From: Actinomarinicola tropica
Lineage (GTDB): Bacteria; Actinomycetota; Acidimicrobiia; Acidimicrobiales; SKKL01
DNA: 64,000 nucleotides
Assembly: GCF_009650215.1 (NCBI RefSeq)
Contig: NZ_CP045851.1
Location: forward strand, 2,197,001 to 2,261,000
Direction: 5' to 3'
Shown here: positions 43,322 through 49,567 of the stretch, piece by piece
How the letters are laid out: each line of letters starts with the position of its first letter
How positions within the stretch are numbered: the first letter of the stretch is position 1
The notes under the pieces: model-generated
Told to the model about the DNA's origin: nothing
The model's database searches: none
Seen by the model: the letters and a program-made list of their open reading frames with translations, nothing else
Made by a program: the position numbers and the translations under genes

Positions 43322-43942
43322 ATGACGGAGCGGCGACTGACCCCTCGAGGCCGTGAGCGGCGGCGTCAGATCATGGACTTCGCCACCGCCCGCTTCGCCG
43401 AGAAGGGCTACGACCCCACCTCGGTGGCCGACATCGTCGACGGCCTCGGTGTCGGCAAGGGCGTCTTCTACTGGTACTTCCAGAGCAAGGAGGACCTCCT
43501 CGTCGAGATCCTCGTCGAGGCCCAGGACGAGCTCGCCCGGGTCCAGGACCGGGCGATGGGCGACGAGGCCGACGCCGTGCGGCGCATCGAGCTCGCCATC
43601 CGCGCCACCGTCGACTGGCAGTCCCGGAACCGCGACCTGGCCACGATCCGCCGCTTCGCCGCCGGCGAGGACCGCTTCGCCGACGCCCTGCGGCGCAACC
43701 ACGAACGCGCCGTGGCCGGGTGGGTGGCCCTCGTGAAGGCCGGCATCGCCGACGGTCGCATCCGCCCGGACCCGCCGACGATGCTCGCCAACGCCATCGT
43801 CGGCGTGATCACCAACTTCGACCGCGTGCTCATCAAGCACGGCAGCGACCCGCAGGCGGTGGCCGACGTGGCGGTGCGGTTCTGCCTCGGCGGGCTGGTG
43901 GCCGAGGGGGCCGCCTCGGTGGGGTCGGCTAGAGCTTCGTGA
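43322..43942 (+). CDS. TetR-family transcriptional regulator
   Basis: 206 residues. N-terminal TetR helix-turn-helix: IMDFATARFAEKGYDPTSVADIVDGLGVGKGVFYWYFQSKEDLL (about 17-60). The C-terminal ligand domain is all-helical. It is divergent from the ACT-domain gene with 99 bp between, which would hold its operator; no clear palindrome was found there. The 3' end overlaps the alaC 3' end by 14 nt on the opposite strand. Ligand unknown. Confidence 0.92.
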   Translation: MTERRLTPRGRERRRQIMDFATARFAEKGYDPTSVADIVDGLGVGKGVFYWYFQSKEDLLVEILVEAQDELARVQDRAMGDEADAVRRIELAIRATVDWQSRNRDLATIRRFAAGEDRFADALRRNHERAVAGWVALVKAGIADGRIRPDPPTMLANAIVGVITNFDRVLIKHGSDPQAVADVAVRFCLGGLVAEGAASVGSARAS

Positions 43943-45101
43943 GCGCTCGGCGGAGGTTGCGCACCGCCTGGCCGATCCGCTGCTCGTTCTCGATGAGGGC
44001 GAAGCGGACGAACCCCTCGCCACCGCTCCCGAAGCCGCTCCCCGGGGACGTCGCGACGTCGGCCTCGGTGACGAGGTGCGAGGCGAACTCGACCGAGGTC
44101 ATCTCGGCGTAGGGCTCGGGGATCGGGGCCCAGGCGAACATCGTGCCCTTGGGCCGCGGCACGTCCCACCCGATGCGGGCCAGACCGTCGATCAGCGCGT
44201 CGCGGCGGCCCTGGTAGATCCCGCGCATCTCGCTCGGGTACTCCTGGGCCTCGTTCAGGGTGACCGTGGCGGCGATCTGGATCGGTTGGAACGTGCCGTA
44301 GTCGAGGTACGACTTCAGCTTGCCCAGCGCGGCGATGACCTCGGGGTTGCCCACCATGAACGCCACCCGCCACCCGGCCATCGAGAACGACTTGGTCATC
44401 GAGTACAGCTCGACGGCGACGTCCTTGGCCCCCGGGACCTGCAGGATCGAGGGCGGGTCGTAGCCGTCGAAGCCGAGGTCGGCGTAGGCGTTGTCGTGGA
44501 CGAGCAGCACCTCGCGCTCACGGGCGAACTCGACGGTCTTGGCGAAGAAGTCGAGGTCGACGCAGGTGGTCGTCGGGTTGTGCGGGAAGGAGAGCACGGC
44601 GACGCGCGGCTTGGGCCACGCGTACTCCCAGGCCTCCTCCATGGCGGCGAAGAAGTCGTCGCCCGTGCCGAGGGGGACCTCGGTGATGTTGGCGCCGGCG
44701 AACAGGGGGCCCCAGATGTGGATCGGGTACGACGGCGACGGCACGAGGGCGGTGTCGCCGGGCTGGAGGAGCACCCACATCAGGTGGCTGAAGCCCTCCT
44801 TGGCGCCGATCGTGTTGATGACCTCGGTGTCGGGGTCGAGCTCGACGCCGAAGCGGCGCATGTACATGTCGGCGACCGCCTGGCGCAGCTTCGGCAGCCC
44901 GCGGCTCTGCGAGTACCGGTGGTTGCGGGAGTTCTGCACCGCCTCGATCATCTTGTCGACGGCGATGTCGGGCGACGCGAGGTCGGGGTTGCCGAACCCC
45001 AGGTCCACGACGTCGCGACCGGCCCGGCGTGCCTCGATCTTCAGGTCGTTGATGATCGCGAAGACGTAGGGCGGCAGGCCGGTGATGCGACGGAACTCCA
45101 T
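43929..45101 (-). CDS. alaC: Pyridoxal-phosphate aminotransferase, AlaC type
   Basis: 390 residues. Class I/II aminotransferase, most like AlaC (glutamate-pyruvate transaminase): starts EFRRITGLPPYVFAIINDLK, GFGNPDLASP, YSQSRGLPKLRQAVADMY, FPHNPTTTCV, VHDNAYADLGFDGY, PLP-lysine 237 in SMTKSFSMAGWRVAFMVGN, and VRFALIENEQRIGQAVR. It makes alanine from pyruvate and glutamate. The AlaC/AlaA group has neighbours of other specificity, so the substrate is probable. ATG at 45101 with a TAGCCT box. Confidence 0.9.
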   Translation of the reverse strand: MEFRRITGLPPYVFAIINDLKIEARRAGRDVVDLGFGNPDLASPDIAVDKMIEAVQNSRNHRYSQSRGLPKLRQAVADMYMRRFGVELDPDTEVINTIGAKEGFSHLMWVLLQPGDTALVPSPSYPIHIWGPLFAGANITEVPLGTGDDFFAAMEEAWEYAWPKPRVAVLSFPHNPTTTCVDLDFFAKTVEFAREREVLLVHDNAYADLGFDGYDPPSILQVPGAKDVAVELYSMTKSFSMAGWRVAFMVGNPEVIAALGKLKSYLDYGTFQPIQIAATVTLNEAQEYPSEMRGIYQGRRDALIDGLARIGWDVPRPKGTMFAWAPIPEPYAEMTSVEFASHLVTEADVATSPGSGFGSGGEGFVRFALIENEQRIGQAVRNLRRALTKL

Positions 45102-45107
45102 CTGCGC

Positions 45108-45113
45108 AGGCTA
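45108..45113 (-). promoter_or_regulatory. -10 box TAGCCT for leaderless alaC mRNA, overlapping the ROK stop codon
   Basis: The minus strand reads TAGCCT, ending 6 nt before the alaC ATG. The box begins with the TAG stop codon of the upstream ROK gene, so one triplet serves both. Confidence 0.5.
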
Positions 45114-46121
45114 CCGCTGCGCCGCGGACCCCGGATCGAAGGTTCGGGGCCGGACCTCGCCGTCGGGCCGGAGCGCGTCGGCGGCGAGGAGCGCGGCGCC
45201 GACCGCCGCCGCGTGCTCGCCGAACACGGCGGGCAGGACGGGGACCGGGGGACGGTGGCTGGATCCGATGATCAGGTCGGCGACCGCGGAGCGGAGGGGG
45301 TCGAGCAGCACCGGTCCGGCCTCCACGACCCCGCCGCCGATCACGACGACCGACGGGTCGAGGGCGTTGACGAACCCGGCGAGGCCGAGCGCCACCCAAC
45401 GGGCGAAGGCGGCCATCACCGCCAGGCCCTCGGGGTCGCCGGCGGCGGCCGCCGCCACCGCGTGCTCGCCGGTGACGTCGTCGGCGCGCTCGGCACCGGC
45501 TGCGGCGAGGATCCCTGCGCCGCGGCCGTCGAGCACCGCCTCCCGTGCCTGCTCTCCGAGCGCGGATCCGGATGCCAGCCGCTCCCAGCACCCCTGTCGA
45601 CCGCACCCGCACAGGGGCCCGTCGGGGTCGATCACCACGTGACCGAGCTCGCCGCCGAACCCGTGCGCGCCGCGCCGCAGCGCGCCGTCGAGGACGATGC
45701 CGCCACCGATGCCCGTGCCGAGGGCGACGTAGAGCGCGTCGTCCACGCCTCGCGCCGCGCCGAGGCGGTGCTCGGCCACGGTCGCCGCGGTGGCGTCGTT
45801 GTCGACCGCCACGGGGAGGCCGAGCCGATCGCCGAGCAGGCCGACGAGGTCGAGGTCGACGACCCCCGGCAGGTTCGGCCCGTAGCGGAGCACACCCGAC
45901 GTGTCGACGAGGCCGGCGGCGCCGACGCCGACGGCGCGGATCGGACGCCCGCTCCCTTCGGCGAGGGCATCGACGACGGTGCCGAGGGCATCGGCGACCT
46001 CGGCCCGGCCCTGGGGCGTCGGCACGCGCCGCTCGGCGAGGACCTCGCCCGACCCGAGGTCGACCGCGAGACCCAGGATCTTCGTGCCCCCGATGTCGAG
46101 GCCGACCGCTGCGTCGCCCAC
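45111..46121 (-). CDS. ROK-family glucokinase-like sugar kinase
   Basis: 336 residues. VGLDIGGTKILGLAVD at the N-terminus, AVDNDATAATVAEHRLGAA with the catalytic Asp, GTGIGGGIVLDG, HVVIDPDGPLCGCGRQGCWERLASG (ROK signature with intact CxCGxxGC zinc cluster at 171-178) and VVVIGGGVVEAG. This set is typical of glucokinases in actinobacteria. GTG at 46121, 1 nt after the stop of the eRF1-like gene, so probably co-translated. Confidence 0.9.
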   Translation of the reverse strand: MGDAAVGLDIGGTKILGLAVDLGSGEVLAERRVPTPQGRAEVADALGTVVDALAEGSGRPIRAVGVGAAGLVDTSGVLRYGPNLPGVVDLDLVGLLGDRLGLPVAVDNDATAATVAEHRLGAARGVDDALYVALGTGIGGGIVLDGALRRGAHGFGGELGHVVIDPDGPLCGCGRQGCWERLASGSALGEQAREAVLDGRGAGILAAAGAERADDVTGEHAVAAAAAGDPEGLAVMAAFARWVALGLAGFVNALDPSVVVIGGGVVEAGPVLLDPLRSAVADLIIGSSHRPPVPVLPAVFGEHAAAVGAALLAADALRPDGEVRPRTFDPGSAAQR

Positions 46122-46122
46122 G

Positions 46123-47232
46123 TCAGAAGCGGAGGAGGGCGCCGATGCGGCCCATCACGTCGAGGTCGGCGTTGCCGACGCACACCTCGACCCGACAGGA
46201 CTGGGCCAGCGCCTCGTGCACCGCCTCCTCGACGACGTCGTCCACGCGCTCCATCGTCGCTCCGCACGAGGGGCACGTGGGACCGACGGCCGCGAGCGCG
46301 CCGCAACCGCAGCGCCACCCGGCCTCGGCGTAGTCGTCCGACACGAGCAGGTGGTCGGCCCGACGCTCGTGCAGGGCACCGAGGGTGCCGGCGAGACCGG
46401 CGACGCCCTTGCGACCGGCGCCGACGGCGTCGCGCAGACGGGCGACGGCCGTGGCCTCGGCGGCGCGCTCGGCCTGGGCCTGCACCTCGAGCACCTGCTC
46501 GTGCACCTCCTCGACGGTGGCCCCGGCGCCGACGCGGATGCGCTCGGTGAGCCGCTCCTTCAGGTAGGGGTGCAGGAGCGCCTCGACCTCGGCGGTGGCC
46601 TCGGGGCTGCCGCCGACGGTGACGAGGCCGACCTTGCGCTCGTTGAAGAGCTGGAAGGCGGCGGAGGCCGCGTGCCGCAGGTGCTGGTGCACCAGCTCGT
46701 CCACGTGGGGCTCCACGCTGCCCCGAGCGGACTGGTCGCGGACGTCGTAGTCGCGCGGCAGCTCGTCGACGACCTCGCTGCGCTCGACGAGCTCGCCCAT
46801 CTCGTAGACGAAGAGCCGGGAACGCTGGCGGTCGACGAGGATCACGCCGATCGGGCGCAGCTCCTGGACGATCGACTCGAGCTGGCCCAGCGCGGGCGCG
46901 TGGCCGATCGTGATGCGGCTGTGCACCCGCACGGGCAGGGGGATCACCCGCCACAGCTCGCGCGGCGAGCACGAGAACATCGCGAGCCCCCGCACTCCCC
47001 CCTTGCGCTCGAACCCGTTGCGGACGTGCGCCTGGAACCGCTGGAGGTCGTCGCCCACCGACGGCTCGTCGGCGACGTGCGCCGACGCCCGACGCACCAG
47101 CCGGTCGAGCTCGCGCTCGACGTCGACCGGTCGCACGTTCTGGCGCCCGTCGACGTCGAGGTAGCAGGTGGTCACCGGAGCACCGTCTGCGTCGAACTCG
47201 GCCAGCTCACGCACGACCTGATCGTTGATCAC
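46123..47232 (-). CDS. Bacterial archaeo-eukaryotic release-factor-1-like (baeRF) protein
   Basis: 369 residues. Resembles archaeal/eukaryotic eRF1 middle and C-terminal domains found sporadically in bacteria. VTTCYLDVDGRQNVRP begins the family core. RPIGVILVDRQRSRLFVYEMGELVE is the domain-2 strand pair. RDQSARGSVEPHVDELVHQHL aligns with the GGQSAQRF loop of aRF1, so Gln167 is kept but the two glycines are Arg-Asp. Near residue 300 a zinc ribbon CGCGALAAVGPTCPSCG follows. A ribosome-rescue or peptidyl-tRNA role is inferred. GTG at 47232 with AGGAGG upstream. Confidence 0.75.
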   Translation of the reverse strand: MINDQVVRELAEFDADGAPVTTCYLDVDGRQNVRPVDVERELDRLVRRASAHVADEPSVGDDLQRFQAHVRNGFERKGGVRGLAMFSCSPRELWRVIPLPVRVHSRITIGHAPALGQLESIVQELRPIGVILVDRQRSRLFVYEMGELVERSEVVDELPRDYDVRDQSARGSVEPHVDELVHQHLRHAASAAFQLFNERKVGLVTVGGSPEATAEVEALLHPYLKERLTERIRVGAGATVEEVHEQVLEVQAQAERAAEATAVARLRDAVGAGRKGVAGLAGTLGALHERRADHLLVSDDYAEAGWRCGCGALAAVGPTCPSCGATMERVDDVVEEAVHEALAQSCRVEVCVGNADLDVMGRIGALLRF

Positions 47233-47263
47233 GTTGCGTCACCCTCCTGATGGCGTCCGCGCC

Positions 47264-47305: not shown

Positions 47306-49567
47306 TCAGATCGCGGGCTGGCCGGGCCGGACGACGGCGGCGACGTCGAGGCCCTGCGCCCGAGCCCAGGCGGCGACCGCCGGGGTGTCGCCGACGTACA
47401 GGATCTGCACGGTGCGAGCGACCTTGGCCAGCGCGGCGCAGAGGCTCTCGACGTGGTCCTCGGAGAGGCCCCGGAACGCGTCGTCGAGGACGAGCGGCAC
47501 GGTGCCGGACGGCGCCGCGGTGCGGAGCGTGGCGACCCGGCCGAGCAGGAACCACTCGATGGGCTCGACCCCTGCGTCGTCCAGGTTCCACTCCACCTCC
47601 GGCGGCGGACCCCCGGTGACCTCCTCCTCGAGGGAGGCGGCGGCGTGGGCGGCGTCGTCGTGGCGCGCCTGGACCTCGCGCTCGGCGCTGCGGGCGCTGC
47701 GCAAGCGGCCCTGGAGCTCGTCGGCGAGGGCGACCGCGTCGCGGTGCCGGGCGAGCCGCGCCTCGGCCACCGCGAGCTGTTCGTGTGCGCCGCGCACGGC
47801 CGGGTCCTGGGCGACGCGCGGGTCCTGGGCGGGGTCGGCCGGGGCCGACGCGGCGAGCGCGTCGAGCGCGGCCTCCACCTCGGCCACCCGACGGGCGTGC
47901 TCCTCGGCGACGTCCTCGAGCTCGGCCAGCGCCGCGTCGGCGGTCGCGGCCCGGGCGTGGAGGTCGTCGACGCGTCGTGCGGCAGCCTCCACCGGACGCT
48001 CGACGGGGACGGGCACCTCGTCGTCGGCGGCTCGGCGGGCGTCGAGCTCGGAGCGGGCCAGCGCAGCGTCGGCGAGGAACGTCTCGGCGGCGCCGACGAG
48101 GGTGCGCTCGTCGTCGCCGCGGCGGTCGATGCCGAGGCGGTCGAGCAGCGCCCGGAGCTCGTCGACGGCGGGGTGGTCGGACTCCGCCGGCACGCGCAGG
48201 GCGCGCAACGCCGACTCGACGTCGTCGGGCAGGGTGGCGAGCAGGTCGCGGGCCGCGGCCCACAGCTGGTCGCGCTCGGCGCGCAGCATCAGCACCCGGG
48301 CATCACGCTCGAGGATGCTGGCGGCCTGGTCGAGCTGCCCCTCGAGGTCGGCGACCCGGTCGGTCGCGGCGTCGAGGCGACGCCGGGCGTCCACGTCGAT
48401 CGTGGGTGCGATCCGCCCCATGACGTAGGCGGCGTAGGTCGGGTAGCCGACGCGGTCGAGGATGGCGTCGAGCGCGTCGCACGCCTCCTGGTAGGCCGAT
48501 TCGGTCGACTTGCCGGAGCGGCGCGACGACCGCTTCTCCCCCAGGTCGACGACGATGTCGTGGAGGCGCTCGATCTCGGCGTCGTCCTCCGGCGAGATCA
48601 CCTTCGGACGGGCGGCCTCCTGCGCGGCCTGGACGTCGAACTGCGCCGCCGACAGCTCGTCCTGGAGGGCGACGACGTCGATCCCCTCGTCGCGCAGCGT
48701 CTGCTCCAGCGCGTCGTGGCGCTCGTTGTGCTCCCGGATCCGATCCGCCAGGTCGAGCGCCTCGGGGGAGGTGACCATCGGCGCCGGCGGCGGGCCCATC
48801 CGGACCAGCTCGAGGGCCTGCTCGACCGCAGCGACGTGCTCGGCGGGCGGCACGACGGGAAGGTCGGGCTCGGTCGGGGCCTCGGCCGCCTCGGCGGCGT
48901 CGTCCGCGCTCAGCTGGTCGTGCTCGGCGCGGGCGGCCTCGAGGTCCTCGAGGAGCTCGAGCAGCGCCAGGCGCTCGGCGTCGAGACGGGCCTCGTGCCG
49001 CGCGGCGGCCTCGCGCGCCTCGGCGAGCGCGGACTCCAGACGGACCCGCTCGTCGGTGGCGGCGGTGCCCTGGAGGCGGGCGACGGCTGCCGCCTCGGCC
49101 TCCCGCACGGCGGCCACGGCCGCGTCGTGGGCGTTGATGGCGAAGTCGTCGACGCCGCGGCGGGCCTCGTCGAGCTGGTTGGTGGCGGTGGCCACGGCGC
49201 GACGGGCAGCGGTGAGCTCGTCCTCCAGCTCGGCCAGCGCGGCTCGGGCGGCGGACAGGCGGGCGTCAGCGTCGGTGTCCGAGCCGCCCGCGCCCACCAG
49301 ACGTGCGCCGGGGAGCTGCTCGGCCCGCACGAGCACCTCGGTGTCGGGCGGGAGGTCGAGCGCAGCGAGCGCTCCGGAGGACAGCTCGCTCAGCACCTCG
49401 TCGGACTCGATGAGGCCGCTCGTCCCTGCGGCGTCGCCGCGGGTCAGCCGCACGAGGCGGTCGACGACGCGACGGTGGACGTCGGGGTCGAGGCCACCGA
49501 GCACCGTGACGTAGGGATGGAGGTCGAGCTCCTCCCCGTCCTCGAGGTCGAGTCGAAGGATCCGCAT
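47306..49567 (-). CDS. SMC/RecN-like coiled-coil protein lacking Walker A
   Basis: 753 residues. Short N-terminal globular part (1-95), very long coiled coils (about 98-310, 395-640) around a GYPTYAAYVMGR hinge-like segment near 370, and a C-terminal globular end. The end has a Walker B-like strand VPLVLDDAFRGLSEDHVESL and ATPase-type closing strands (QILYVGDT). Where SMC proteins carry the P-loop, the sequence is VTVLGGLDPDVHRR with no GKS/T, and no LSGG signature is present. It looks like an SMC-type ATPase that has lost nucleotide hydrolysis. ATG with GAGGACC. Upstream of the eRF1-like gene. Confidence 0.7.
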   Translation of the reverse strand: MRILRLDLEDGEELDLHPYVTVLGGLDPDVHRRVVDRLVRLTRGDAAGTSGLIESDEVLSELSSGALAALDLPPDTEVLVRAEQLPGARLVGAGGSDTDADARLSAARAALAELEDELTAARRAVATATNQLDEARRGVDDFAINAHDAAVAAVREAEAAAVARLQGTAATDERVRLESALAEAREAAARHEARLDAERLALLELLEDLEAARAEHDQLSADDAAEAAEAPTEPDLPVVPPAEHVAAVEQALELVRMGPPPAPMVTSPEALDLADRIREHNERHDALEQTLRDEGIDVVALQDELSAAQFDVQAAQEAARPKVISPEDDAEIERLHDIVVDLGEKRSSRRSGKSTESAYQEACDALDAILDRVGYPTYAAYVMGRIAPTIDVDARRRLDAATDRVADLEGQLDQAASILERDARVLMLRAERDQLWAAARDLLATLPDDVESALRALRVPAESDHPAVDELRALLDRLGIDRRGDDERTLVGAAETFLADAALARSELDARRAADDEVPVPVERPVEAAARRVDDLHARAATADAALAELEDVAEEHARRVAEVEAALDALAASAPADPAQDPRVAQDPAVRGAHEQLAVAEARLARHRDAVALADELQGRLRSARSAEREVQARHDDAAHAAASLEEEVTGGPPPEVEWNLDDAGVEPIEWFLLGRVATLRTAAPSGTVPLVLDDAFRGLSEDHVESLCAALAKVARTVQILYVGDTPAVAAWARAQGLDVAAVVRPGQPAI

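Follow-up and report, generated by a model that had tools for sequence, protein, structure and literature searches.

In this study, we identified a divergent member of baeRF family 10 in Actinomarinicola tropica and found that, judging from its alignments, the catalytic loop of the release-factor type is lost in its clade. The window, meaning the whole 64,000-nucleotide stretch that was analysed, carries the gene directly before that of a ROK-family sugar kinase (Table 1). On balance, and with modest confidence, we read the product as a non-hydrolytic, Balon-like factor of the ribosomal A site that would act in hibernation or protection and be made together with the kinase.

Table 1. Positions in the window of the baeRF gene, its parts and its neighbours.
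Feature	Position	Strand	Remarks
baeRF family 10 protein gene	46123..47232	-	369 aa; PF18854 1.7e-21; model pLDDT 91.2; Balon Z 28.4
Shine-Dalgarno-like AGGAGGG	47242..47248	-	9 nt before the GTG start; sequence read directly
N domain, residues 1-112, with YLDVDGR	46897..47232	-	boundary approximate; without NIKS, without literal HP
Middle domain, residues 113-251	46480..46896	-	PF18854 match
Loop at the GGQ-loop place, residues 156-173	46714..46767	-	no secondary structure; variable sequence and length
RDQ, residues 165-167	46732..46740	-	167 is Gln in 6/83 clade members; RDQ in 2/83
R170, aligned with the Gln of GG[WM]xQ	46723..46725	-	R or K in 72/83; from alignments
Zinc ribbon C308-x-C310 ... 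C320-x2-C323, in the C domain	46264..46311	-	sequence, clade alignment
ROK-family sugar kinase gene	45111..46121	-	PF00480 1.6e-70; start 1 nt past the baeRF stop
Class I aminotransferase gene, next in the block	43929..45101	-	closest NCBIfam model alanine transaminase, score below cut-off
SMC-like gene, upstream of baeRF	47306..49567	-	73 nt apart; SMC-like is our reading; no Pfam match over cut-off

The open reading frame starts with GTG at 47232 and encodes 369 residues. Given this start, the AGGAGGG before it and the full-length relatives that a protein search recovered within the order (71 to about 37% identity), the frame is real. Searching the block by consensus revealed no promoter or terminator, a result that is uninformative in such GC-rich DNA. 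The SMC/Rad50-like protein encoded upstream has 753 residues and a weak PADLOC match to LmuB (1.2e-4). The place where we would expect its Walker A motif reads GGLDPDVHRR, without GKS/T, and what we take to be a Walker B-like stretch, VPLVLDDAF, is kept.

The family of the protein was determined by profile searches. PF18854, the Pfam model of baeRF family 10, matched at 77.4 bits against a curated cut-off of 27.1 (E 1.7e-21), with the next Pfam family at 24.0 bits; baeRF families 3 and 2 gave E-values of 5.6e-5 and 2.2e-4, both below their cut-offs. All 47 members of the alignment of relatives (A1) matched PF18854 at E <= 0.001. The NCBIfam hibernation-factor models NF052287, NF052288 and NF052289 scored 33.6, 62.0 and 42.1 bits against equivalog cut-offs of 330, 480 and 320, and TIGR03676, the aRF1 model, scored 23.8 bits against 234.7. 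The only strong sequence match in the PDB was Balon of Mycobacterium smegmatis (Msmeg1130; E 6e-11). A scan for related loci with the single window protein returned no matches. These results place the protein in baeRF family 10 as a divergent member by profile, as does the tree described below by descent, and they bear out the preliminary description in its placement of the protein in the eRF1 superfamily as a baeRF type. The kinship to Vms1/VLRF1 that it had also proposed found no support, and membership of that group was rejected, since neither Pfam nor NCBIfam listed acVLRF1 (PF18859, NF041024) at E <= 1.

We next describe the predicted structure. An AlphaFold2 model built from the alignment of 47 sequences reached a pLDDT of 91.2 and a pTM of 0.78. 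Searched with Foldseek and VIA-align, it ranked Msmeg1130 first (E 8.1e-26, Z 28.4), with the match spanning residues 1-369 (359 aligned, rmsd 4.3, 21% identity). The next matches by Z were Balon of P. urativorans (22.5) and Rv2629 (20.9), followed by eRF1/aRF1 at about 18, and Pelota entries appeared at about 14. The predicted protein thus has the three-domain eRF1 fold. In the model, strand 147-155 and helix 174-198 enclose the RDQ-bearing loop 156-173, within which residues 161-170 (mean pLDDT 54) are the least certain block of the whole prediction. Topology would set this loop at the tip of the middle domain, at the place of the GGQ loop, which agrees with the earlier proposal for RDQ. Neither of the two outcomes named as refuting that proposal, an RDQ distant from the tip or a missing superfamily match, was thus encountered.

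To place the protein among its relatives, loci were collected at three levels. Within the order, the protein search matched 48 of 148 genomes and the best 30 loci were used; PF18854 searches matched 82 of 296 genomes in the class and 175 of 396 in the phylum, and at most 30 best-match loci were used from each. We added 80 named loci, the best 80 of the 104 relatives found, which are mostly titled Acidimicrobiia, Acidimicrobiales or Actinomycetota, with a few other titles. PF18854 also draws in other baeRF families, and family 2 is the better match for two of the loci (L072 and L002). Removal of 24 near-copies and 2 fragments from 161 proteins left 135 rows, from which a tree was built without the loop columns, with a midpoint root and SH-aLRT support only. 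The window protein fell in a clade of 83 rows (support 94), inside a set of 88 rows (98), among family-10 proteins carrying GGxxQ. Three sequences titled Bifidobacterium breve (L132, L142 and L148) grouped with Acidimicrobiia-type and Candidatus Microthrix-titled sequences, and these titles look wrong.

We then examined the loop in the clade. The preliminary description had held that RDQSARGS (residues 165-172) keeps the Gln of GGQ. This is true of the letters of this one protein, and a weak phmmer alignment to aRF1 of A. pernix (3agk; E 0.74) sets Q167 on that Gln; in the family alignments, however, it is R170 that meets the Gln of GGWSQ, and Q167 is paired with the second Gly of this motif. 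Residue 167 was D in 27 clade members, E in 24, H in 12, S in 9, Q in 6, G in 3 and M in 1, with one more outside these seven commonest states, and residue 170 was R in 52, K in 20, Q in 7, H in 2, E in 1 and A in 1. Of GG[WM]xQ, whose Gln many other family-10 members have at this place, the clade has mostly lost the second Gly and the Gln. The members with Gln at 170 (L008, L116, L125, L128, L131, L133 and L151) are scattered across the clade. R, K and Q thus appear to replace one another at this residue, for which the tree needs at least 17 changes among the three states. RDQ at 165-167 occurred only in the window protein and its one congener, L004, and we rejected it as a conserved variant of GGQ; the literal RDQ of L029, L134 and L128 falls at other alignment columns. 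The stretch 160-184 also varied in length, with 25 residues in 56 rows, 28 in 17, 27 in 8, and single rows of 23 and 26, against 24 in all 17 relatives picked for GGxxQ. Mean entropy in the clade was 2.16 bits for residues 161-175 and 1.50 bits for the rest of the protein, although in variability the loop ranks 19th among 355 stretches of the protein, not first. Homology within the loop is uncertain by about one residue, and the conclusion of loop decay holds for column 167 as well as column 170, as Gln is conserved in neither. Family 10 varies beyond the clade too, with some groups having GGxxE.

These results bear on whether the protein is an active peptidyl-tRNA hydrolase for ribosome rescue, working through Q167 although its loop lacks both glycines, as the preliminary description had suggested. 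According to the available text of PMC6514570, the well-conserved Gln makes family 10 a possible peptidyl hydrolase, the phmmer alignment to aRF1 agrees with such a role, and three clade members (L030, L042 and L154) have a literal GGQ in the loop. Against it, Gln was found at 167 in only 6 and at 170 in only 7 of the 83 members, Asp or Glu occupies 167 in 51, and the loop is on average more variable than the remaining protein. Since Gln is not kept in the clade and the loop varies in sequence and length, the alignments make peptidyl-tRNA hydrolysis by the window protein unlikely, and we regard the hydrolase explanation as highly improbable. An unconstrained loop length is likewise described for baeRF families without Gln in the available text of PMC6514570.

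The basic and His residues flanking the loop are conserved, as are several residues elsewhere. R160 was kept in 80, H184 in 81 and R or K at 186 in 80 of the 83 clade members, and D28, G29, H221, D356, L357 and D358 were invariant in all 83. NIKS was absent from all 161 proteins checked, and residues 1-112 of the window protein contain no literal HP, the motif that serves the decoding centre in Balon-type factors. The C-terminal zinc ribbon reported in the preliminary description is present (C308, C310, C320 and C323); under a fixed pattern, 54 of the 83 members have the four Cys and 19 more have three Cys and Asp, while in the remaining ten the ribbon is shortened (three) or most of the Cys are gone (seven). 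In the pairwise alignment, Msmeg1130 has other residues at the place of the ribbon, a site relevant to the EF-Tu beta-loop of Balon-type factors. Four clade members (L018, L026, L028 and L032) have lost most ribbon Cys and kept the remaining C domain, and they provide a natural test of the role of the ribbon.

A Balon-like fold, the missing release motif, a variable loop and constant basic and His residues around it led us to the preferred reading, a non-hydrolytic A-site factor. The protein would bind the ribosomal A site much like Balon, with the N domain towards the decoding centre, the middle domain towards the peptidyl-transferase centre and the C domain outward, and would occupy the ribosome without hydrolysing peptidyl-tRNA; its role would be ribosome hibernation or protection. 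Given the zinc ribbon, the contact to EF-Tu may differ from that of Msmeg1130. Among solved structures, ribosome-bound Balon proteins match the full length best, ahead of eRF1/aRF1, which favours this reading. The genome contains three PF00472 genes, so normal termination and rescue seem covered, and work on the ribosome other than normal termination, as proposed from the outset, is likely. Several observations weigh against the hibernation role: the best NCBIfam hibernation score was 62 against 480, RaiA is not adjacent, fewer than half of the genomes in the order matched (48/148), and 7 of the 83 clade members have Gln at 170.

A related explanation is that the protein acts as a non-catalytic rescue factor similar to Dom34/Pelota, which enters stalled ribosomes and helps to split rather than store them. 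It would share the fold and the absence of a catalytic loop, Pelota structures were among the matches, and such a role is proposed for inactive baeRF families in the available text of PMC6514570. The Balon matches were stronger in both structure and sequence, however, and no GTPase or ABCE1-type partner was found among the scanned neighbours in the window. We consider this explanation possible but unlikely.

Turning to the gene neighbourhood, a single base separates the baeRF stop from the start of the ROK kinase gene (TGA C GTG). Its best NCBIfam model was the ROK glucokinase TIGR00744, at 202.9 bits against a cut-off of 260.35; the label glucokinase was rejected for this reason, and the gene is called a ROK sugar kinase here. 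When ten window ORFs were used as queries against larger regions of other genomes, the ROK match was the next match downstream on the same strand in 19 of 20 regions, the exception (L109) having a baeRF that is only 36% identical. In the named set, a ROK gene begins no more than 300 bp away in 69 of the 77 loci with room for one; the pairing was missing from L150, L167, L176 and L187-L190, and L184 has its ROK match on the other strand. Over the tree, 88 of 131 rows with room showed the pairing; within the clade the share was 77 of 80, and elsewhere 11 of 51. Two GGWSQ loci of the same class (L033 and L038) were scored as lacking a direct ROK neighbour, as about 575 to 590 bases and a small ORF intervene. 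This small ORF, between baeRF10 and ROK, has a hydrophobic stretch and a TYCLSN motif.

Seven of the 11 paired proteins outside the clade have GGxxQ (L073, L074, L076, L078, L079, L183 and L186), which suggests that the pairing is probably older than the loss of the motif. The genomes of the first five lie in the phylum but not in the class of the window, and the pairing thus reaches beyond the class. Other frequent neighbours in the order were the aminotransferase gene and an SRPBCC-type (Polyketide_cyc) gene; neighbour counts for ORF941 were not used because it is probably a wrong-frame ORF. In another family of the phylum, a locus (L191) has an SRPBCC match (34%, 2.5e-18) before the ROK gene and no baeRF match in the stretch, and the kinase neighbourhood may therefore be older than its baeRF member.

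We also considered whether baeRF10 is homologous to SCO2127, which we take to be the gene upstream of the Streptomyces glucokinase. In three genomes (group f109; L192, L194 and L195), the best ROK match follows a 164-203 aa protein and an ORF in place of baeRF10. By eye, we judge this protein to be acidic and the ORF to be ArsA-like, and our guess is that the group is Streptomyces. The upstream protein differs from baeRF10, and tblastn of the window baeRF against 12 ROK loci (L191-L202, with 1.5 kb flanks) found nothing; homology with SCO2127 was rejected on these grounds. The available text of PMC11043171 and PMC11472566 holds no description of the SCO2127 sequence.

The strength of the pairing raises another explanation, in which the protein has left the ribosome and become a partner or regulator of the adjacent ROK kinase. 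Its frequency in testable clade members (77/80 against 11/51 outside), together with the lost catalytic loop, would fit such a change. The basic and His residues flanking the loop, the DG of YLDVDG and the DLD of the C domain are highly conserved, as would be expected of a ribosome binder, and the three testable members L150, L167 and L176 have no ROK neighbour. We find this explanation quite unlikely.

In the preferred reading as a ribosome factor, the protein would be made together with the ROK kinase, probably by translational coupling, and its dose would follow the same, presumably carbon-dependent, control; it is the ROK pairing that suggests control by carbon supply. A bolder version, which we offer as speculative and rather doubtful, is that baeRF10 and the kinase form a two-gene module that couples ribosome silencing with the supply of sugar. 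Both would be made from a single message; the kinase would read or set sugar status, and the protein of this clade, descended from forms with the peptide-releasing motif, would have become a pure plug that parks ribosomes to match. GGxxQ members in other classes may then release peptides under the same control. Linkage to RaiA was rejected, since the sole RaiA-type gene of the genome lies at C1:2459708, about 215 kb away, and not beside the baeRF gene.

The available main text of PMC6514570 contains neither ROK, glucokinase nor 'sugar kinase', and that of PMC10901736 has no word starting with 'kinase' or 'ROK'. As far as the literature searched shows, neither a branch of family 10 without the motif nor its ROK pairing seems to have been reported. 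In the available text of PMC6514570, family 10 stands out as possibly the most notable of the baeRF families whose conserved Gln could make them active peptidyl hydrolases. The present clade shows that this family also includes a branch without the motif. This branch and its GGxxQ kin form a natural before-and-after pair for testing the function of the GGxxQ loop, and the conserved pairing with a sugar kinase gives a testable lead on the control of ribosome factors outside stress operons.

Compared with known systems, the protein shares the three-domain fold of aRF1 (4af1, 3agk; Z 18.0), whereas it lacks GGQ and NIKS and falls far below the TIGR03676 cut-off. Vms1/VLRF1 belongs to the same superfamily; the window protein differs in having RDQSARG in place of the GGxSQ motif and in its missing acVLRF1 match, and nine GGxxQ relatives in family 10 that were scanned do match acVLRF1 (8.7e-8 to 3.3e-19). 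The Rv2629-type factor of baeRF family 2 has the same fold (Z 20.9), but the window protein matches family 2 only at 2.2e-4. A family 2 or Rv2629-like paralogue is present in the same genome (L002:1171-2298, C1 near 2891167; PF18844 1.4e-39), and it differs from the window protein in its loop, GGWSQRRF, and in its neighbours; the ORF before the previous one there looks DJ-1-like to us.

Balon (MSMEG_1130; 8v9l, 8v9j) is the best structural match over the whole length, and GGQ and NIKS are absent from both proteins. The available text of PMC10901736 describes Balon as lacking these motifs and as having stress-operon neighbours, with RaiA the commonest, and baeRF neighbourhoods with HPF are noted in that of PMC6514570. 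Unlike Balon, the window protein has a zinc ribbon in its C domain and scores far below the NCBIfam cut-offs, and its gene adjoins that of a ROK kinase rather than RaiA or stress genes. The available text of PMC6514570 (Burroughs and Aravind 2019) states that most baeRF families are usually without the Gln and that family 10 is a notable exception. The window protein resembles family 10 in its three-domain eRF1 build, its C-domain zinc ribbon and its grouping in the tree with GGxxQ proteins, whereas the Gln that those authors found well conserved is R or K in 72 and Gln in 7 of the 83 members of its clade. These results indicate that the protein is a variant within a known kind of eRF1-fold bacterial protein.
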